Shown here piece after piece: positions 16,617 through 59,920 of a stretch of DNA of 64,000 bases (the first letter of the stretch is position 1; the number at the start of each line of letters is the position of its first letter). Both the position numbers and the translations under genes were made by a program. Below the pieces are notes generated by a model. The model was not told where the DNA came from and made no database searches. It saw nothing but the letters and a program-made list of their open reading frames with translations. Source of the stretch: Asanoa iriomotensis (lineage in GTDB: Bacteria > Actinomycetota > Actinomycetes > Mycobacteriales > Micromonosporaceae); contig NZ_BONC01000024.1 in the NCBI RefSeq assembly GCF_016862515.1, positions 1 through 64,000 of the forward strand, given 5' to 3'.

Positions 16617-17843
16617 ATGACCATGATCACCGCCGATGCACCGCCCGCCGCCCGGCCGCCGCGCCCCACCACGGTGACCGTCGCGTTCTGGCTCCAGCTC
16701 GCGGCGGCCCTCCTCTTGTTCCTCATGGTCGGACTGACGGTGGCGTACGCCGTCTACTTCGACCAGCTGATCGACCGCGCGGTGGAACTGGTGCCCGACG
16801 TCGACCCGGCGGACGTGAGCAGCGAGCGCACCAGCAACATGGTCATGGCCGCGGTCGTCGGCAGCGTGTTCCTGGTGGGTTCACTAGCCTTCGCGGCCAC
16901 GGCGTGGCCGCTGCGCCGGGGCAGCAACGCGGCCCGGATCGTCACGTTCATCGTGTCGGGCCTGCACTTCGTGGCGTGCCTACTGCCCTGCGTCGGCAGC
17001 ATGGTGATCTTCCCGTTCTTCCTGACCGGCCCCGACATCGGGTACGTCGACCCGGAGGCCATGCCGTACGAGGAAGCGCGGTTCTTCGAGGTCCTGTACG
17101 AGCAGACGACATCGACCGAGGAAGCCTTCTTCGCGGGCCTGTCACTGGGCGGCCTGCTGGAGATGATCCTGGTCATCGCGATCGTGATCTTGATCGTGGT
17201 CCCGCCGGCCCACCGCTTCTTCGCTCCGCGCACACCGTCCCCGAACTGGCCGGTCGGCTCCTACCCGACCCTGATGCCCGGCCAGCCCTACAGCGCGTAC
17301 GCCGCGCCCATGCCTGGTCAGCCGTTCAGCGTCTACCCGGCGTCCGTGCCGGGCCAGCCGTTCGGCGTCTACCCGGCGTCCGTGCCAGGCCAGCCGTTCG
17401 GCGCCTACCCAGCGTCCGTGCCAGGCCAGCCGTTCGGCGCCTACCCGGCGACCGTCCCGGGCCAGCCGTTCGGCGCCTACCCGGCGACCGTGCCAGGCCA
17501 GCCGTCGGCGGCGGCCGCGGTGGACCCGACGTCGGTGCCTGCCTCCGGGGCGGACCCGGCGTCGATGCCGGGTGAGCAATCGGTGGTGGACCCGACGTCC
17601 GTGCCGGTTCAGCCGTCTGAGCCGCACCCGGCGTCGGTGCCGGCACAGCCTTCCGGAGCGGACCTGGCGTTCGTGCCGGGTCAGCCGGTCTTCGGCTACC
17701 CGATGCCCGGCCAGCCGTTCCCCGGCTACCCGCAGCCCATGCCCTACGTCATCTGCCCGGACCCTTCCGCACACGTCTCGCCGCCGCCACCGGCCACGCC
17801 CGAACAGCCGCCACCGGCCGGCGAGGGAAAGCTGGACGCGTGA
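16617..17843 (+). CDS. Four-helix membrane protein with Pro/Gln-rich tandem-repeat tail
   Basis: A 408-residue protein of unknown function. The first about 200 residues hold roughly four membrane helices: near 22-46 (VAFWLQLAAALLLFLMVGLT), 75-98, 105-130 and 172-197. The cytoplasmic or extracytoplasmic C-terminal half is low-complexity, with about six 12-residue units of the form (M/V)PGQPFGAYPA(S/T), then degenerate D-P-(T/A)-S-V-P units and a Pro-rich end. Similar Pro/Gln/Tyr tails occur in actinobacterial DUF-type membrane proteins and may be disordered binding surfaces. It is divergent from TetR and overlaps the next gene in GTGA. Confidence 0.75.
   Translation: MTMITADAPPAARPPRPTTVTVAFWLQLAAALLLFLMVGLTVAYAVYFDQLIDRAVELVPDVDPADVSSERTSNMVMAAVVGSVFLVGSLAFAATAWPLRRGSNAARIVTFIVSGLHFVACLLPCVGSMVIFPFFLTGPDIGYVDPEAMPYEEARFFEVLYEQTTSTEEAFFAGLSLGGLLEMILVIAIVILIVVPPAHRFFAPRTPSPNWPVGSYPTLMPGQPYSAYAAPMPGQPFSVYPASVPGQPFGVYPASVPGQPFGAYPASVPGQPFGAYPATVPGQPFGAYPATVPGQPSAAAAVDPTSVPASGADPASMPGEQSVVDPTSVPVQPSEPHPASVPAQPSGADLAFVPGQPVFGYPMPGQPFPGYPQPMPYVICPDPSAHVSPPPPATPEQPPPAGEGKLDA
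17274..17507 (+). repeat. 36-bp tandem repeats encoding PGQPFGAYPA(S/T)V units
   Basis: Six complete and one degraded 36-base units lie head to tail inside the membrane protein gene. Later units are nearly identical at the DNA level, while the first two vary at PYSAYAA and PFSVYPA. The length is a multiple of three, so copy-number change keeps the frame. Confidence 0.85.
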
Positions 17844-18334: not shown

Positions 18335-18766
18335 ATGGAATCCGTTGCGTTGGATCGGTCGTTTCGGTTGTGGAGTTACGGCATCGGCCATTCGCAGCTA
18401 CTGCTGCACGCCCGCGCTGAGGGAAATCACGATGAGCACCTCAACGTTCTGTTCGAAGGCGTCGTCGCGGTGAAAGTGCGGGCTTCGTGTCAGCCGCTGG
18501 TCCTTCAACGCGCTGACCACGACACCCGTGCCAGCGTTCTTGCCTTCGCGCAGGTGCCTGCCCGCATCCAAGCCCAAATCCTCTGCTTGGCTCTACCGTC
18601 GCCGTCGCCGTCGCCGTCGCCGCCGCAGGCCGAGGCCGGATTCGTCGCGTGTGCGCGAGCCACCGTCCTCGCCAACGCCAACAGCGACGACATGACGGCC
18701 GATCGGTGGAACGAGAACTCCCGAGTGCTCCACGTCCTTACCGCCTCGCCGGCTACTTCGCGTTGA
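18335..18766 (+). CDS. Conserved hypothetical actinobacterial protein
   Basis: A 143-residue protein without a recognised domain. The part MESVALDRSFRLWSYGIGHS and QLLLHARAEG...RLNVLFEGV-like strands resemble short actinobacterial proteins of about 150-200 residues that I recognise only as uncharacterised. A Ser-Pro run (SPSPSPSPP) interrupts it, encoded by a CCGTCG hexamer repeat. The C-terminal FVACARATVLANANSDD and WNENSRVLHVL look like further strands. An upstream in-frame ATG nine codons earlier is possible. The 3' end overlaps metH by 14 bases on the other strand. Function unknown. Confidence 0.55.
   Translation: MESVALDRSFRLWSYGIGHSQLLLHARAEGNHDEHLNVLFEGVVAVKVRASCQPLVLQRADHDTRASVLAFAQVPARIQAQILCLALPSPSPSPSPPQAEAGFVACARATVLANANSDDMTADRWNENSRVLHVLTASPATSR
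18596..18625 (+). repeat. CCGTCG hexamer repeat
   Basis: About five CCGTCG units inside the hypothetical gene encode the Ser-Pro linker. The six-base unit keeps the frame when the copy number changes. Confidence 0.6.
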
Positions 18767-21700
18767 AGTAGTTGGCTTCCGGGTGGTGGACGATGATCGC
18801 GTCTGTGGCCTGTTCCGGGGTTAGTTGGAACTCCTCCGACAGTGTTACGCCGATGCGGGACGCGTCCAGGAGGTCCACTACCTTCGCGCGGTCCTCCAGG
18901 TCCGGGCACGCCGGGTAGCCGAAGGCGTAGCGGCAACCCCGGTAGTCCGTGCGGAGCAGGCCCGCCAGCGTCGGCGGGTCCTCCGCGCCCACGCTTTCGC
19001 CCGAGGGGAGCGTCAGTTCAGAGCGGACCCGTTGGTGCCAATACTCGGCCAGCGCCTCCGTCAGCTGGACCGACAGGCCGTGGACCTCCAGGTAGTCGCG
19101 GTACTCGTTGCGGGCGAACAGCTTCGCCGTGTACTCGCTGATGGGCTGGCCCACCGTGACCAGTTGCAGGGCGACCACATCCTGGCCAGACGAGAAGAAG
19201 TCGGCCAGGCACAGGCGGCGTTCCTGGCGTTGGCGCGGGAACGAGAAGCGGGTCAGCTCCGACGCGCCGTCCGGCGACAGGACGATCAGGTCGTTGCCCG
19301 ACGAGCGCGCCGGGAAGTAGCCGTAGACCACCGACGCCTCCAGGACCTGGTCGGCGGCCAGGCGGTCCAACCAATAACGCAAGCGCGGGCGGCCCTCCGC
19401 CTCCACCAGCTCCTCATAGGACGGTCCCGAACCCCGGGCGCCGCGCAGACCCCACTGGCCCAGGAACAGGGCCCGCTCGTCCAGGAGCGCCGCGTACGAG
19501 GCCAGCGGCACGCCCTTCACCACCCGCGTGCCGAGGAACGGCGCCGTCGGGATGTCCACGTCCGTCGACACGTCCGAGCGCACCGAGGCGTCCTCCAGCG
19601 GCGGCAGGTTCTCCGTCACCGACGCGCGCTGCCGCTCCCGGCGGGCCCGCCGAGCCGCGAGCGCGGCCTCACGCGCTGGGTCGACCACGGGTGCACCGCC
19701 ACGCCGCGCCGTCATCACACGGTCCATCAGGGACAGACCCTCGAACGCGTCCCGCGCGTAATGGACCTCGCCGCCGACGAACAGCGACCGAAGGTCATCC
19801 TCCACATAGGAGCGCGTCAGTGCGGCGCCGCCCAACAACACCGGCCACCGAGTGGCCACACCGCGCGAGAGCATCTCCTGCAGGTTCTCCTTCATCACCA
19901 CCGTGCTCTTCACGAGCAGTCCCGACATGCCGATCGCATCCGCGTCTTGGGACTCCGCGGCCTCCAGGATCGACGCGATCGGCTGCTTGATGCCGATGTT
20001 GACGACCTCGTACCCATTGTTGGAAAGGATGATGTCGACCAGGTTCTTGCCGATGTCGTGCACGTCGCCCTTGACCGTCGCCAGGACGATCCGGCCCTTG
20101 CCCTGGTCGTCGTCCGCCTTCTCGATGTGCGGCTCCAGGTAGGCGACCGCGGTCTTCATCACCTCGGCCGACTGCAGCACGAACGGCAGCTGCATCTGGC
20201 CCGAGCCGAACAGCTCCCCGACCACCTTCATGCCGTCGAGCAGCGTGTCGTTGATGATGTCCAACGCCGTCCGGGACTCCAGAGCCGCGGACAGGTCGGA
20301 CTCCAGCCCCGACCGCTCCCCGTCGACGATCCGCCGCTTCAGCCGCTCGTCCAACGGCAGCGCCGCCAGCTCGGCCGCCCGCGACGCCCGCGCCGAAGCC
20401 ACGTCCACGCCCTCGAACAGCGCGATGAACTCCTGCACCGGGTCGTAACCCGGCCTGCGCCGGTCGTAGACCAGGTCAAGGGCGACGTCCCGCTGCCGCG
20501 AAGGGATCCTCGACATCGGCAGGATCTTGCTCGCGTGCACGATCGCGCTGGTCAGACCCGCGTCGACGCACTCGCTCAGGAACACCGAGTTGAGCACCTG
20601 CCGGGCCGCCGGGTTCAGGCCGAACGAGATGTTCGAGATGCCGAGCGTGAAGTTGACGCCGGGATACAGCGAGGCGATCTCCCGGATCGCGTTGATCGTC
20701 TCGATCCCGTCCCGCCGGGTCTCCTCCTGGCCCGTCGCGATCGGGAACGTCAGCGCGTCGATCAGGATGTCCGACCGCCGCATCCCCCACCGGCCGGTCA
20801 GGTCGTCGATCAGCCGCCGCGCGACGCGTACCTTCCAATCGGCTGTTCGGGCCTGACCCTCCTCGTCGATCAGCAGGGCGACGACCGCCGCGCCGTGCTC
20901 CCGGACGATCGGCATCACCCGCGCGTAACGGGACGTCGGCCCGTCGCCGTCCTCGAAGTTGACCGAGTTGACCACGCACCGCCCGCCGAGCATCTCCAGC
21001 CCGGCCTCGACGACGGCCGGCTCGGTCGAGTCCAACATGATCGGCAGCGTCGACGCGGTCGCGAACCGGCCCGCCAGCTCCTTCATGTCCACGGCGCCGT
21101 CCCGGCCGACGTAGTCGACGCACAGGTCGAGCAGGTGCGACCCGTCCCGCGCCTGCGACCGGGCCATCTCCACGCACGCCTGCCAGTCGCCGGCCAGCAT
21201 CGCCTCGCGGAACGCCTTCGAGCCGTTGGCGTTTGTCCGCTCTCCCACCATCAGCACGCCGGCGTCCTGCACGAACGGCACGTGGTGATAGATCGAGGAC
21301 ACTCCCGGCTCGTCGGTGGCCTCCCGGGTCGGGTGCTGCGCGCCCACGCCGAGCGCCGCGACCACGGCCGAGATGTGCTCGGGCGTGGTGCCGCAACACC
21401 CGCCGACCAGCGCGGCGCCGTAGTCGGAGACGAACGAACCCAGCGCGTCCGCGAGCTCGGCCGGGGTCAACGGGTAGTACGCACCGTCCGCGGTGAGTTG
21501 CGGCAACCCCGCATTGGGCATCACCGACAGGGGTACGCGCGAATGCTGCGCCAGGTACCGCAGGTGCTCGGTCATCTCCGCCGGCCCGGTGGCGCAGTTC
21601 AGCCCGATCAGGTCGACACCCAGGGGCTCGATCGCGGTCAGCGCCGCCCCGATCTCACTGCCGAGCAGCATCGTCCCGGTGGTCTCGACCGTCACGTGGG

Positions 21701-22262
21701 CGATCACCGGCACCTCGCGCCCCGCGCCGGCCATCGCCCGGCGCGCGCCGTTGGCAGCCGACTTGAGCTGCAGCAGGTCCTGGCAGGTCTCGATGATCAA
21801 AGCGTCGGAGCCGCCGAGCAGCAGACCCAGGGCATTCTCCTGGTACGCGTCGCGCAGCGTCCGGTAGTCCGTGTGCCCCAGCGTCGGCAGCTTGGTGCCC
21901 GGGCCCATCGACCCGAGCACGAACCGTGGCCTCTCGACCGTGGCGAACCGGTCCGCCGAGGCCCGCGCGATCCGGGCGCCGGCCTCGGCCAGCTCACGAA
22001 TCCGCGACTCGATCCCGTACTCCCCGAGGTTTCCGAGATTGGCTCCGAAGGTGTTGGTCTCCACGCAGTCGGCACCCGCCGCCAGATAGGCGTCGTGCAC
22101 CCCGCCGACCACCTCGGGCCGGGTCACGTTGAGCACCTCGTTGCAGCCTTCGTGCCCCTCGAAGTCGTCGAGCGTCAGGTCGGCGGCCTGGAGCATGGTG
22201 CCCATGGCGCCGTCGGCGATCAGGACCCGGCCGGCGAGCGCGTCAAGGAACGAAGTCGACAC
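18753..22262 (-). CDS. metH: Cobalamin-dependent methionine synthase
   Basis: A 1169-residue cytoplasmic enzyme that transfers methyl from 5-methyltetrahydrofolate via cob(I)alamin to homocysteine. The homocysteine/zinc domain covers residues 1 to about 300 (DGAMGTML at the start, zinc cysteines in GLNCATGP and GGCCGTTPEH). The pterin domain spans about 320-590. The B12 helical cap is at about 620-715, and the B12 Rossmann domain has the axial His in DVHDIGKNL near residue 733. The AdoMet reactivation domain ends the chain (YAFGYPACPDLEDR). Length is usual. GTG start, with TAGCCT six bases before it. No cobalamin riboswitch is recognisable in the 140 bases upstream. Confidence 0.97.
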   Translation of the reverse strand: MSTSFLDALAGRVLIADGAMGTMLQAADLTLDDFEGHEGCNEVLNVTRPEVVGGVHDAYLAAGADCVETNTFGANLGNLGEYGIESRIRELAEAGARIARASADRFATVERPRFVLGSMGPGTKLPTLGHTDYRTLRDAYQENALGLLLGGSDALIIETCQDLLQLKSAANGARRAMAGAGREVPVIAHVTVETTGTMLLGSEIGAALTAIEPLGVDLIGLNCATGPAEMTEHLRYLAQHSRVPLSVMPNAGLPQLTADGAYYPLTPAELADALGSFVSDYGAALVGGCCGTTPEHISAVVAALGVGAQHPTREATDEPGVSSIYHHVPFVQDAGVLMVGERTNANGSKAFREAMLAGDWQACVEMARSQARDGSHLLDLCVDYVGRDGAVDMKELAGRFATASTLPIMLDSTEPAVVEAGLEMLGGRCVVNSVNFEDGDGPTSRYARVMPIVREHGAAVVALLIDEEGQARTADWKVRVARRLIDDLTGRWGMRRSDILIDALTFPIATGQEETRRDGIETINAIREIASLYPGVNFTLGISNISFGLNPAARQVLNSVFLSECVDAGLTSAIVHASKILPMSRIPSRQRDVALDLVYDRRRPGYDPVQEFIALFEGVDVASARASRAAELAALPLDERLKRRIVDGERSGLESDLSAALESRTALDIINDTLLDGMKVVGELFGSGQMQLPFVLQSAEVMKTAVAYLEPHIEKADDDQGKGRIVLATVKGDVHDIGKNLVDIILSNNGYEVVNIGIKQPIASILEAAESQDADAIGMSGLLVKSTVVMKENLQEMLSRGVATRWPVLLGGAALTRSYVEDDLRSLFVGGEVHYARDAFEGLSLMDRVMTARRGGAPVVDPAREAALAARRARRERQRASVTENLPPLEDASVRSDVSTDVDIPTAPFLGTRVVKGVPLASYAALLDERALFLGQWGLRGARGSGPSYEELVEAEGRPRLRYWLDRLAADQVLEASVVYGYFPARSSGNDLIVLSPDGASELTRFSFPRQRQERRLCLADFFSSGQDVVALQLVTVGQPISEYTAKLFARNEYRDYLEVHGLSVQLTEALAEYWHQRVRSELTLPSGESVGAEDPPTLAGLLRTDYRGCRYAFGYPACPDLEDRAKVVDLLDASRIGVTLSEEFQLTPEQATDAIIVHHPEANYFNAK

Positions 22263-23400: not shown

Positions 23401-24195
23401 ATGCAGAGCAACCCGGGTGCCGCCGAGGCGCCGCACCGCCAGATAGCCGAGCAGATCAAGGCCCAGATCCGCCGCGGTGACTGGGCGGCCGGCGAGCGGT
23501 TGCCGTCCATACCGGCGCTGGCCGAGACGTTCGGTGTCGCGAAGCAGACACTCCAGCGCAGCATCGACCAGCTGCGGGTCGAGGGCGTGCTGATCACCAA
23601 ACCTGGATCGGGTACGTACGTCCGCGGCACCAAACGCCGCCTCAACCGGCTGTCCCGGGGTCGCTACGGCGGCCACCGCGGCTACCACGCGGACCTGGCG
23701 GCGCGGTACCGGCAGCACCTCACGGAGGTCGGCCGGGCACCGGCACCACCGGAGGTCGCGGACGCGTTCGGGGTCGCCGACCACACCCCCCTGCTGGTCC
23801 GCCGGCACCTGGTGCGCACCGACGACGTGCCGGTCGAGATCGGTGCGGCCTGGTTCCGGGTCGAGGACGCGGCGGGCACGAGCCTGGAACGCTTCGAGGG
23901 CTTCGGCCGGCCGCTGTACCAGGAGGCCGAGGAGGCGCTCGGCCGCCGCTACGCGACCGCGACGGACGTGATCACCGCCCGCCAACCGGACCGCGACGAG
24001 GCCGAGATCCTCCAGATCCGCGGCGACACGCCGGTGCTGCATTTGCTGCACGTGGCCTACGACGACAAACACCGCGCGATCGAGGTCAGCCAGGCCACGT
24101 GGCCGGGCCCGATGACGACGCTCACGGAGAACTACAAGATCCCGGGCCCGGTCGAGGACGCACCGGACGACGAACCAGGGCTCGCCCTGGGTTAG
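23401..24195 (+). CDS. GntR-family regulator, HutC/UTRA subfamily
   Basis: A 264-residue regulator. The GntR winged helix is at residues 10-78 (RQIAEQIKAQIRRGDWAAGE, LPSIPALAETFGVAKQTLQR, GSGTYVRG). A UTRA ligand domain covers about 95-245 (TPLLVRRHLVRTDDVPVEIG; TPVLHLLHVAYDDKHRAIEV). UTRA proteins usually sense sugar phosphates, amino acids or other small metabolites. GGGAGG precedes the ATG. No structural gene follows on the same strand; instead a palindrome array begins at once, and copies of this gene's last codons recur inside that array. Target unknown. Confidence 0.88.
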   Translation: MQSNPGAAEAPHRQIAEQIKAQIRRGDWAAGERLPSIPALAETFGVAKQTLQRSIDQLRVEGVLITKPGSGTYVRGTKRRLNRLSRGRYGGHRGYHADLAARYRQHLTEVGRAPAPPEVADAFGVADHTPLLVRRHLVRTDDVPVEIGAAWFRVEDAAGTSLERFEGFGRPLYQEAEEALGRRYATATDVITARQPDRDEAEILQIRGDTPVLHLLHVAYDDKHRAIEVSQATWPGPMTTLTENYKIPGPVEDAPDDEPGLALG

Positions 24196-24478
24196 CGGTC
24201 GGCGCCCAGACCGGAAGACGCGGTTGCGGCGGTTGCCGCAACCGCTGGCTGTTCTTGAGGCAGCGCCCACCCCAGCGTTGCGGCAACCGCCACCCGGGTT
24301 GCGGCAACCCCCAGCGTTGCGGCAACCACTACGAACCAGGGCTCGCGCCGGTTAGCGGCACGAGCTCGGACAGGACGACGCCGTTGCGGCAACCCCCAGC
24401 GTTGCGGCAACCACGACGAACCAGGGCTCCCCTCGGTTCGCGGCCCGCGCCCGGACGGGAAGAGGCCGTAGCGGCGCG
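24170..24478 (+). repeat. Three dispersed copies of the gntR 3' end
   Basis: About 60-base segments starting at 24170, 24331 and 24416 share ACGAACCAGGGCTC followed by a related GGTTAGCGG-like and GACGGGAAGA-like stretch. The first copy encodes the last residues and stop of the GntR protein; the others are non-coding and lie between palindromes of the array. Confidence 0.65.
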
Positions 24479-24900
24479 TTGCCGCAACCGCTGGTCAGGG
24501 TTGGGGCAACCGCCAGCAGCGCGTCACCCCGACCGCCGCCCGATTCCGCCGGGCCGTCACCCGCCCATCGCCGCCACCCCGCCCGCGCGTTGCGCTGCCG
24601 CCACGAGCATTGCGGCAACCGCAGCCCGAGGCATCGTCGCAACCGCCGGCAGGATCGTTGCGGCAACCGCAGTCCGAGCGTCGCCGCAACCCCCGCCAAG
24701 AAGGTTGCGGCAACCGCCGGCGAGAGCGTTGCCGCAACCCCCGGGAAGACCGTTGCCGCAACCGCCGGCAAGAGCGTTGCCGCAACCGCCGGCAAGAGCA
24801 TTGCCGCAACCCCCGCCAAGACCGTTGCCCTAACCCCCGCCAAGACCGTTGCCGCAATCGCCGGCAAGAGCGTTGCCGCGACCGGCGGGTCGGGCGTTGC
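24232..24900. repeat. Array of GTTGC[C/G]GCAAC palindromes with a 24-bp period
   Basis: Perfect copies begin at 24232, 24277, 24298, 24316, 24383, 24401, 24478, 24657, 24704, 24728, 24752 and 24776. Copies with one or two mismatches begin at 24500, 24609, 24680, 24800, 24824, 24848 and 24872, and a half site begins at 24896. From 24704 to 24896 the spacing is exactly 24 bases. The array fills the 713-base gap between two convergent genes. No protein-coding reading survives across it, because the repeat changes frame at the 24657/24680 step. Confidence 0.9.
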
Positions 24901-24908
24901 GGTGTTCG

Positions 24909-25280
24909 TTAGGCCGCCCACGGTGGCTGGATGTGGTTGCCGCCGGCGGTGGCGGTGCTGCCCGCGGCGCTGGTGACGATTGCCGTAAGGCCGTCGGTCG
25001 CGTCGGCGGTGACCTGGCGTTCGAGGTCCGGGGCGAGCACCAGGCTGTCGCCCGCGCTGATTCGCACGTCGTCCGCGCCCAGGCGGACGGTCGCGCCGCC
25101 CGACAGCACCGTCCAGATCTGCTCCGTGTCGACCGTGTGGGTTGGGCCCGCGCCGCCCGGTGGCATCTCGACCCGCCAGAGCGGGCGGGTCGCGCCGCCC
25201 AGGGTCGGTGAGGCCAGCGTCGTCATCACTCCGGCGGGTGTCGTGAAGCGCCGCGTCTGGTCGTACCCGATGACAGTCAT
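24909..25280 (-). CDS. Small cupin-domain protein
   Basis: A 123-residue single cupin. PGGAGPTHTVDTEQIWTVLS and GDSLVLAPDLERQV correspond to the two cupin motifs, though only some metal-binding His/Glu positions (His48, Glu53) are present. Such proteins bind or isomerise small molecules or bind sugars; function unassigned. AGGAGG sits seven bases before the ATG, an unusually strong ribosome site here. It is divergent from a MarR regulator across a 61-base gap with two operator-like repeats, so MarR probably controls it. Confidence 0.82.
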   Translation of the reverse strand: MTVIGYDQTRRFTTPAGVMTTLASPTLGGATRPLWRVEMPPGGAGPTHTVDTEQIWTVLSGGATVRLGADDVRISAGDSLVLAPDLERQVTADATDGLTAIVTSAAGSTATAGGNHIQPPWAA

Positions 25281-31031: not shown

Positions 31032-31110
31032 GGAACGGTCCGTTCCTAACGCCTTCCGCATAGGAACGGACCGTTCCCATCGCTTTCCGCGTTTGGAACG
31101 GACCGTTCCT
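31031..31110. repeat. Three palindromes GGAACGGWCCGTTCC between convergent genes
   Basis: A perfect 17-base copy at 31031-31047 (flanked by A/T), 31063-31077 and 31095-31109 each have arms GGAACGG/CCGTTCC around one central A or T. The spacing is 31-32 bases, and the inter-repeat text (AACGCTTTCCGC-like) is itself similar. The array fills the 89-base gap between the SCO1664-family stop and the mshC stop. Confidence 0.88.
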
Positions 31111-58196: not shown

Positions 58197-59087
58197 ATGG
58201 TGCGGGCGGTGATGGTGGGGCAGGAGAGGGCCTTCGCGGCGTTCGAGGCGGTCCGGCCGAGGCTGTTCGGCATCGCGTACCGGATGCTCGGCAGCGTCCC
58301 GGACGCCGAGGACGTCGTGCACGACGCCTGGCTGCGCTGGCAGCAGGCCGACCGCGACCGGGTGCGGGACCCGGACGGGTTCCTGATCACCACGACGTCC
58401 CGCCTGGCGATCAACGCGGCCACGTCGGCGCGCGCCCGGCGCGAGGTCTATCCAGGACAGTGGCTGCCCGAGCCCGTCGACACCGCCGCTGACCCGCTGC
58501 TGCGCCTTGAACGGGACGAGTCGGTCGAGCTGGCGATGCTGTTGCTGCTGGAGCGGCTGTCGCCGGCAGAGCGCGCGGTGTACGTGCTGCGCGAGGCGTT
58601 CGACTACCCGTTCCGGCAGATCGGCGAGGTGCTCGGCACGACCGAGGCGAACGCGCGGCAGATCGGCCGCCGGGCCCGCGCCCACGTGGCCGAGGAGCGG
58701 CACGACCCGGTCGCGCGCGCCGACCACGGCCGGCTGCTGCGGTCGTTCCTCGCCGCCGCCCGGACCGGCGACCTCGACCAGCTCGAAACCCTGCTGACCG
58801 AGACGGCGATCTCGTACGCGGACGGCGGCGGCACCGTCCGGGCGGCCCCGATGCCCATCTACGGCCGGGAGAACGTGGCGCGGTATCTCGTCGGCCTGAT
58901 GGCGAAGTTCGGCCACGACCTCACCTTCGAGATCGTGGAGTCCAACGGCCAGCCGGCGATCCTCGCGTCGCGGCACACCGCGGCGGCCGCACTGATCGCC
59001 ATCGAAGTCTCACCCGACGGCATCGAACGGGTCCTGATCACCCTCAACCCCGCGAAGCTGGCCCGTTTCCAGCGACGGGAAGCCTAG
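58197..59087 (+). CDS. ECF41-family RNA polymerase sigma factor (SigJ-like)
   Basis: A 296-residue sigma factor with region 2 (RPRLFGIAYRMLGSVPDAED), region 4 (PAERAVYVLREAFDYPFRQI, then EVLGTTEANARQIGRRAR), and a fused SnoaL-like domain (about 175-290) containing the DGGG motif in SYADGGGTVRAAP, as in group ECF41. It is a paralogue of the sigma at 11641. ATG codons at 58197 and 58212 are both possible. The stop overlaps the stop of the convergent patatin in CTAG. Confidence 0.91.
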   Translation: MVRAVMVGQERAFAAFEAVRPRLFGIAYRMLGSVPDAEDVVHDAWLRWQQADRDRVRDPDGFLITTTSRLAINAATSARARREVYPGQWLPEPVDTAADPLLRLERDESVELAMLLLLERLSPAERAVYVLREAFDYPFRQIGEVLGTTEANARQIGRRARAHVAEERHDPVARADHGRLLRSFLAAARTGDLDQLETLLTETAISYADGGGTVRAAPMPIYGRENVARYLVGLMAKFGHDLTFEIVESNGQPAILASRHTAAAALIAIEVSPDGIERVLITLNPAKLARFQRREA

Positions 59088-59920
59088 GGCTGCCAGACGT
59101 CGCCGAGCTCGCCGGCGAGTGAGCGGCCCTGTGCGGTGGCGGCCTCGATCGCCGGCTCCCAGCGGCCCGCGTCGAGCACGTTGGGGCCGAGCGCGCGCAG
59201 GACGTCGTCGTCGGGCGCGACCAGGGCCACCCTGGACCGTTGCCGCAACGCGTCGAGCTCGGCGGCCGGGGCGCCGCGCATCCTGATGGGTGCCAGGGGT
59301 GCGAGCACGACGACGGTCGCGGCCTCGGCGGCCAGGTCGGCGTTCGTGCCCGACCGGACGCCGCCGTCCATGTAACGGACCCCCTCGATCGTCACCGGCG
59401 GGAAGACGCAGGGCACCGCGCAGCTCGCCGCCACCGCGCGGTGGAGCGGGACCCCGGAGCGGTCGTCCCAGACGACCGGGGTGCCCGACTCCGCGTCCAC
59501 GGCGGTGACCAGCAACCGGCGGCCGGGCCAGCCACCAGGCGGCAGGCGGCGGCGCAGGGACTCGACATACGGCTCCTCGGCGCCGACCTCCGCCGCCAGC
59601 GCCAGTTCGCCGACGCGGGCCCGTACCTCTGCCGGGTCGCGGGTGTCGTCCCCGAGCAGGGCGAACACCTCGCTGCCACGGGCCCATTCCGGACGGATCG
59701 GCGGGTCGTCGGCGCCCAGCCGTGACTCGATCTTCGCGGCGTCGACGGGGTCGAGGCCGGAGGCGAGGAGAGCGCCGGTGACGGAGCCGGCGGAGGTGCC
59801 GACGATCAGGTCGGCGTCCGTGAGGTCGACGCCGACCTCGCGAAGTCCGATGAGGAGCCCGAGCTGCCAGGCGATGCCGGTTATGCCGCCGGCGCCCAGC
59901 ACGAGTGCGGAGTCGACCAC
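59084..59920 (-). CDS. Patatin-like phospholipase (RssA-type)
   Basis: A 278-residue acyl hydrolase. Oxyanion motif GAGGITGIAWQ, nucleophile Ser in VGTSAGSVTG, and dyad Asp in YMDGGVRSGTNADL. This is the compact RssA-like patatin form, different from the patatin at 54679. GTG start. It is convergent to the ECF41 gene with a four-base overlap of stops. Expected at the inner membrane face; lipid substrate unknown. Confidence 0.88.
   Translation of the reverse strand: MVDSALVLGAGGITGIAWQLGLLIGLREVGVDLTDADLIVGTSAGSVTGALLASGLDPVDAAKIESRLGADDPPIRPEWARGSEVFALLGDDTRDPAEVRARVGELALAAEVGAEEPYVESLRRRLPPGGWPGRRLLVTAVDAESGTPVVWDDRSGVPLHRAVAASCAVPCVFPPVTIEGVRYMDGGVRSGTNADLAAEAATVVVLAPLAPIRMRGAPAAELDALRQRSRVALVAPDDDVLRALGPNVLDAGRWEPAIEAATAQGRSLAGELGDVWQP

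Follow-up and report, generated by a model that had tools for sequence, protein, structure and literature searches.

The 11-bp word GTTGCSGCAAC is strongly over-represented in an Asanoa genome (G000, an 8.57-Mb draft), in which 161 exact sites were found compared with 3 for the reversed pattern, which served as the control in the same genome for exact-site counts. The word is over-represented in its exact form, has only S (C or G) at its centre, and uses codons that the genome otherwise avoids when it lies within genes; those of its dense arrays that were compared with sister species had no equivalent there. We propose, with a probability of about 0.42, that it is the exact recognition site of a putative specific DNA-binding or DNA-processing protein that would act chromosome-wide, with sites concentrated towards the origin, in a manner similar to Noc, SlmA, MatP or parS systems. 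A more specific form of this proposal is doubtful, namely that Asanoa has a chromosome-organising system of its own, specific to this lineage and biased towards the origin, with a putative protein that reads the exact 11-bp pseudo-palindrome, and for whose recruitment synonymous codons would have been rewritten and arrays grown.

The window (the whole 64,000-nucleotide stretch of DNA that was analysed, on contig C24 of G000) contains one such array in a 713-bp convergent gap (24196–24908) between GntR/UTRA and cupin genes (Table 1). A preliminary description of this DNA had claimed a palindrome array between convergent genes, and this array is real and larger than was noted then. The whole window has 41 matches within two mismatches, compared with 24.3 ± 4.3 in shuffles, and 0.65 kb holds 20 of these 41. 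The exact 24-bp run of nine sites was also correctly described, but not its range of 24704–24896, since the full sites start at 24680 to 24872 and position 24896 holds a half site. Outside this nine-site grid the spacing is irregular, and the sites intermingle with the 85-bp duplication. Tandem units of 24, 48, 72 and 85 bp were detected by TRF, so that the window DNA has the head-to-tail organisation of minisatellites. The statement that reading frames are not kept holds for the gap, which has 1–4 stops in each of the six frames, but not for the regular part of the array, which is open in one frame (ORF 24479–24976, encoding VAATAGKS octapeptides). No known RNA, including rRNA, was matched at the arrays in an Rfam search of 128,002 bases, and a search for a plasmid origin gave no match.

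Table 1. Positions of the array, its flanking genes and single sites in the window
Feature	Position	Strand	Remarks
GntR/UTRA-family regulator gene	23401–24195	+	left flank of the array
Palindrome array	24232–24882	.	20 sites with at most two mismatches to GTTGCSGCAAC, 12 of them exact; every centre C or G
85-bp tandem duplication	24298–24475	+	2.1 copies; contains exact sites as well as repeated gntR 3'-end text
Regular part of the array	24680–24882	.	nine sites at exact 24-bp spacing, starts 24680 to 24872
Half site	24896–24902	.	GTTGCGG, tenth position on the 24-bp grid, not counted among the 20
Cupin-domain gene	24909–25280	−	right flank of the array, convergent with the GntR/UTRA gene
Single exact site in metH (18753–22262, − strand)	21497–21507	.	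kept in G001 and G003; changed in G002, G004 and G005
Single exact site in predicted gene 59084–59920 (− strand)	59239–59249	.	codons TTG CGG CAA

Within G000, 61 of the 161 exact sites belong to five arrays and 100 are located elsewhere, and all 30 exact pairs with spacers of 4–34 bases fall inside these five arrays. Genome-wide clustering had been predicted, with an even scatter as the outcome that would speak against it; the arrays bear out the first, whereas the other 100 sites are scattered. Asanoa belongs to Micromonosporaceae, and we counted the word in 61 genomes of this family and its order, including G000. Counts were raised in A. hainanensis (G003; 61 vs 4 for the control), A. ishikariensis (G001; 52 vs 7) and a further Asanoa genome, G002 (25 vs 8), and were not clearly raised in two others (11 vs 7 in G005, 7 vs 2 in G004). 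The 55 genomes outside the genus had 0–17 sites, mostly near the control; the genome with the largest count (17) had 18 for the control, and moderate excesses over the control were seen in a few others (e.g. 15 vs 7, 12 vs 6, 11 vs 5, 9 vs 3 and 7 vs 2). Three spaced copies occurred in only 10 contigs of a set of 84,980 species, from which records near the genome of the window were possibly excluded; two of these contigs were from Asanoa. Six viral contigs had two spaced copies, with 2–5 exact copies each.

When odd 11-nt palindromes with 8 or more occurrences were ranked in an 893-kb sample of G000 from which arrays had not been removed, the word came first, with 83 occurrences compared with 0.93 under an order-3 model. 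When the five arrays were masked, 25 exact sites were present vs 0.9 expected (~27-fold) in 994,463 bases, a sample that includes stretches picked for holding sites; the whole-genome count of 161 is free of such choice. In the same masked sample, one-arm single-mismatch versions occurred 33 times vs 33.1 expected, the inner TTGCSGCAA outside the 11-mer 4 times vs 2.0 expected, and GCSGC alone had an observed/expected ratio of 0.94. Scaled from this sample, the whole-genome expectation is ~8 sites, compared with the 100 outside arrays, which correspond to a density of ~12 per Mb. Contigs C1 and C3 (605 kb), which were likewise selected with the site list already known, carried 9 exact sites. 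The restriction of the centre was equally strict: no single site had A or T at this position in 888 kb (0.59 expected), 137 of 137 sites in nine arrays were centred on C or G, and S was retained through a C-to-G swap between C7:233978 of A. ishikariensis and C38:60601 of A. hainanensis. Flanks of single sites were unremarkable, with no conserved letter beyond the 11 bp.

A first sample comprised 22 single exact sites outside arrays. With genes predicted by a home-made codon model, 19 were located in genes and 3 between genes, and the in-gene sites occupied codon phases 2, 1 and 0 in 10, 3 and 6 cases, respectively. A role at the DNA level, as suggested in the preliminary description, is supported by this use of all three frames and by differences from relatives that are synonymous where a frame is predicted. 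Leu-(CGG/CCG)-Gln was spelt TTG..CAA in 10 of 71 cases vs 0.3 expected under independent codon choice, in a sample that includes stretches chosen for holding sites.

Comparison with sister species showed which words occupy the orthologous places. Sisters carry GCTGCSGCAGC at the orthologues of the G000 sites L001, L002 and C29:11436, and GTCGCSGCGAC at those of L011 and C29:18791; similarly, a site shared by A. ishikariensis (C7:233978) and A. hainanensis is GTCGCSGCGAC in G002 and G004. The change to the word is synonymous at L001, L002, C29:11436 and C29:18791; no frame was predicted at L011, and C7:233978 does not fall within a predicted gene. At L003 to L006, L015, the metH site (window 21497) and C29:52049, one change separates the word from at least one sister. 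It appears that single sites have a constant product and different starting words, with the direction of change judged from the states of other species. The word is absent from the nearest relatives at L001, and a more distant match (72–73% identity) has it in four species. A site in a divergent SDR/MmyB-like gap (C7:30999), considered as a clue to autoregulation, was missing from all five relatives compared, and this candidate was rejected.

Only 6 of 17 single sites of G000 (ten loci, metH and six on C29; L009 and window 59239 were left out) were also present at the orthologous position of one or more sisters, namely L004, L005, L006, metH, C29:52049 and C29:66330. This indicates high turnover, which counts against a reader protein. 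Between A. ishikariensis and A. hainanensis, 7 of 8 sites were retained vs 3.9 expected from their flanks (P 0.026), or 5 of 6 vs 2.9 (P 0.08) when two sites fetched for looking conserved were removed. These numbers hint at some maintenance of single sites above flanks in this species pair.

The five G000 arrays are located on C24 (the window), on C13 at 8.5, 43 and 58.5 kb, and on C29 at 72.6–73.3 kb. Clustering between convergent genes, predicted from the window, applies to three of them (C24, C13:58 kb and C29), but not to the C13:8.5 kb array, which lies between divergent genes, nor to the C13:43 kb array, which lies within an open reading frame. Nine arrays from three species have the 11-mer in common and differ in period. 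The 24-bp period of the window is partly reused at C13:8.5 kb, but the other arrays use different ones; periods besides 24 bp were 24/27, 34–35, 19/25/26, 30, 42, 18/34 and 54 bp, and TRF gave a 105-bp unit for the C13:43 kb array. As had been proposed, the half sites are the constant part: in none of the pairs among the nine arrays were shared spacer 9-mers more than 4 s.d. above the mean of single-base shuffles. Array spacings showed a weak concentration at 10–10.5 bp (R 0.25–0.20, nominal p 0.0006–0.01). However, the nominal p is inflated because duplicated spacings are not independent, and with so weak a concentration a fixed helical phase is not established. BLAST joined parts of arrays at 68–77% identity through motif-rich stretches, including the window array and C29 (73% over ~160 bp, E 2e-11) and an array on C22 of A. 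hainanensis and C29 (71% over 228 bp). As judged from these alignments, some common descent among arrays is possible.

A comparison with sister strains, recommended in the preliminary description, showed that none of five relatives carries an equivalent of the window array in this gap. The orthologous gntR/cupin gaps of G002, G003, G004 and G005 contained no site within two mismatches, and that of A. ishikariensis has a 6.6-kb gene-bearing insert with three two-mismatch matches at least 600 bp apart and none closer to the word. The DNA that fills this gap varies between species: an unrelated long inverted repeat in G002 (L184, ~8,080,000), GC-rich repeats of its own in G005 (L183, C43 ~35,200), and inserted genes in A. 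hainanensis and A. ishikariensis. No exact array was detected at the position of the C29 array in the stretches of G002, G003 and G004, and no exact sites at the positions of the C13 43- and 58-kb arrays in the corresponding stretches of A. ishikariensis and G002. An array at C7:205 kb of A. ishikariensis and a matching pair in A. hainanensis are partly shared. As separate observations, C7:190–205 kb of A. ishikariensis is inverted relative to C29:9.3–41 kb of G000, and ~17 kb of G000 (C29:22.4–39.5 kb) was unmatched in the sister stretches compared.

With regard to chromosomal position, C13 represents the origin region of G000: it carries candidate DnaA boxes (by match to the consensus), yidC, jag, rsmG, parA and parB, together with six parS sites that match the canonical word exactly. 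The interval between rsmG and parA is 3.8–4.9 kb in G000, A. ishikariensis and G002. In the complete genome G002, parB is located at 2.43 Mb, the flanks of C13 at 2.41–2.47 Mb, recR (beside dnaX) at 2.63 Mb and tilS at 2.69 Mb. By synteny to G002, four of the five G000 arrays are within ~0.3 Mb of parB, as are the clusters on C7 of A. ishikariensis and C38 of A. hainanensis. The window array maps to 8.08 Mb on G002, on the terminus side and ~3.4 Mb from parB, and is therefore not explained by an origin bias. Other far arrays were at ~4.83 Mb in A. hainanensis and, within a gene of A. ishikariensis, at ~8.5 Mb (placed from synteny anchors). When single sites and collapsed arrays were counted, with sites on unplaced contigs taken as far, 8 of 38 sites in A. 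ishikariensis (P 0.003), 12 of 52 in A. hainanensis (P 0.0002) and 4 of 25 in G002 (P 0.08) were within 300 kb of parB, a limit set after looking and applied to sister species that share some sites. In G002 the mean distance to parB was 1.60 Mb (P 0.005). Sites and arrays lean towards oriC, which is supported statistically and in part after the fact.

In the explanation that we favor, a putative, highly sequence-specific protein of Asanoa would recognise exact GTTGCSGCAAC and act along the whole chromosome, with its sites denser towards the replication origin. Selection or drive, acting on point changes that within genes are mostly synonymous, would make and keep the ~100 single sites, and local tandem duplication would multiply a site into dense landing pads. 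Dense arrays, including that of the window, would be young, largely species-specific and fast-evolving minisatellites. The exact S-centred word, the avoided codons and the arrays in varied contexts argue for something that reads the word, and a chromosome-organising protein would fit how many sites there are, their occurrence in both genes and gaps, and the origin bias. Evidence against such a reader is that array spacing has no common period and that versions with one mismatch show no enrichment, although most DNA-binding proteins accept some mismatches in their binding sites. By annotation, no candidate reader gene stands out among 20 genes at the C7 hot spot of A. ishikariensis, which include dnaX, ybaB, recR and yqeY. 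The earlier suggestion of an array for a partition or nucleoid protein may still apply, but not in the form of ParB/parS as such, since parS sites with the canonical word are located beside parAB. A ParB/parS pair of changed specificity was likewise rejected, as the six exact sites on C13 are canonical.

Several features of the single sites would also be expected if a DNA-modifying enzyme together with biased repair made and kept the palindrome without a selected function: the over-representation is exact and all-or-none, substitutions from different starting words converge on one product, and S is told from W at the axis, a discrimination that GCSGC-type enzymes make. Such drive has been proposed for cyanobacterial HIP1 and GCsGC words, and for one exceptional published HIP, GCsGC, a methyltransferase that matches the word is predicted (PMC4390886). 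We consider this explanation rather unlikely for GTTGCSGCAAC, whose density outside arrays is ~100-fold below that of published HIPs, given as generally 1000–2000 per Mb (PMC4390886); moreover, GCSGC itself is not enriched, and neither of the two methyltransferase families searched, PF00145 and PF01555, tracks the motif count. PF00145 had no match in G000, A. ishikariensis and G002 and had matches in the motif-poor G004 and G005 and the motif-rich A. hainanensis, and PF01555 matched G000 once and in part, did not match G002 and matched G004 and G005 better. Both a C5-methyltransferase HIP model (PF00145) and an N4/N6 methyltransferase (PF01555) were set aside on this basis. The arrays, in turn, might come from a recombinogenic word, at which a site-specific nick or break leads to local tandem duplication and rearrangement, with single sites as seeds. 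The tested arrays are missing from sisters and differ in spacers, the C29 array is an 867-bp insertion at a place where the tilS and AraC-type stop codons abut in A. ishikariensis, and the A. ishikariensis C7:205 kb array and its A. hainanensis pair are located at one end of the inversion relative to G000. However, this is a single breakpoint, and a breaking or mutating site is expected to be lost rather than gained ~100 times, often by two changes. A recombinogenic role fits the arrays and not the gain of single sites, and it is unlikely as an explanation of the whole.

The same arrays could be neutral minisatellites, with single sites that arose from something unrelated. Tandem repeats containing the 11-mer do occur in unrelated genomes, as six of the eight non-Asanoa contigs with three spaced copies were regular tandem copies that happened to contain the word; the window array shows internal decay, and the BLAST similarity of some arrays leaves room for common descent. 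Neutral growth is quite improbable, however, in that it would not be expected to settle on one 11-mer, always with an S centre, in all nine arrays, nor to yield the excess of sites outside arrays over the ~8 expected. That the arrays encode VAAT-type disordered peptide repeats is suggested by the C13:43 kb array, which is in frame within a 1876-aa ORF ending in ParA with part of its extension conserved, by an A. ishikariensis array in frame within a predicted PfkB-family gene, and by 72 of 116 spacings below 60 bp being multiples of 3. On the other hand, spacings in the C29 array include 19, 25, 26 and 20, all frames of the window gap contain stops and single sites use all codon phases, which makes a coding repeat very improbable. 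The ORF itself (L062:5453–11083, G000 C13:41452–47082) has a long Ala/Ser/Arg-rich extension before ParA, of which the ParA-adjacent part is ~71% identical in A. ishikariensis and G002. A multi-hairpin transcript end, also raised in the preliminary description, would agree with the three arrays in convergent gaps and with the regular part of the window array folding better than shuffles (z −3.1). It is highly improbable, given that a palindromic repeat folds well by construction, that arrays also occur in an ORF and a divergent gap, and that hairpins at RNA ends do not fit single sites scattered through coding sequence (19 of 22 within predicted genes).

In the portions of the literature covered by our searches, the motif strings gave chance matches only, in articles about plants or about the uptake of sucrose by E. 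coli, and no such element was described for Asanoa or its family. Within one genus, with counts from 7 to 161, gains of the exact word can be followed, both through synonymous substitutions and through the growth of arrays at new places. This offers testable questions on what makes and keeps over-represented palindromes and on how chromosome-wide binding codes arise, and the word could be used as bait for its reader. If the more specific form of our proposal is true, the emergence of a new centromere-like or nucleoid-organising code could be watched across sister species.

Two other kinds of repeats were observed. A second palindrome, AACGGWCCGTT, occurred 14 times vs 0.21 expected, with pairs and triples mostly 30–32 bp apart in a longer element (window 31034–31107; G000 C1:34803, 221760 and 266613; C3:139805 and 162246); a 120-kb stretch of G004 had 2 copies, and the other sister stretches examined had none. 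This looks like a separate interspersed repeat family. In addition, window 17249–17732 contains 36-bp and 30-bp tandem repeats, whose periods are divisible by 3 and which are possibly a coding repeat.

Comparison with known systems placed the element outside several classes. A CRISPR array was rejected, as the 11-bp sites are irregularly spaced with duplicated spacers, whereas CRISPR repeats are long and identical and are separated by unique spacers of constant length; REP/BIME elements (interspersed imperfect palindromes of 20–40 nt, in which conservation extends past 11 bp) were rejected because the flanks of single sites are unrelated to one another and show no conserved letter past 11 bp. 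Bacterial minisatellites and VNTRs share with the Asanoa arrays local tandem units that differ between species, but here differing periods share one 11-mer, and spacer words are not above chance. Similar to parS, the palindromic sites are enriched near oriC, and one motif array is a few kb from parS; however, the parS word is GTTTCACGTGAAAC, which is different, its six exact canonical copies on C13 are separate from the motif and lie beside parAB, and motif arrays also occur far from the origin. HIP1 of cyanobacteria (GCGATCGC and alternates) is likewise an exact GC-rich palindrome enriched in one lineage, in genes and gaps, through point changes, and gross over-representation of one palindrome is found here as well (161 vs 3). 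The Asanoa word differs in having 11 bp with a degenerate axis, dense arrays and an origin bias; it is ~100-fold rarer (161 in 8.57 Mb, compared with ~1000 per Mb), one-off versions biased to the ends are not common (33 vs 33.1), and the richest genome, G000, is without a PF00145 C5 methyltransferase match. Noc, SlmA and MatP act at short palindromes, from some tens up to roughly a hundred, that lie in genes and gaps with a chromosomal bias. Near matches to the Asanoa word are not enriched, it forms dense many-site arrays and its reader is putative, in which it differs from these systems; it shares with them the tens to about a hundred short palindromes over genes and gaps and a non-uniform chromosomal distribution, as seen in the mean distance to parB in G002 and with the 300-kb limit chosen after looking.
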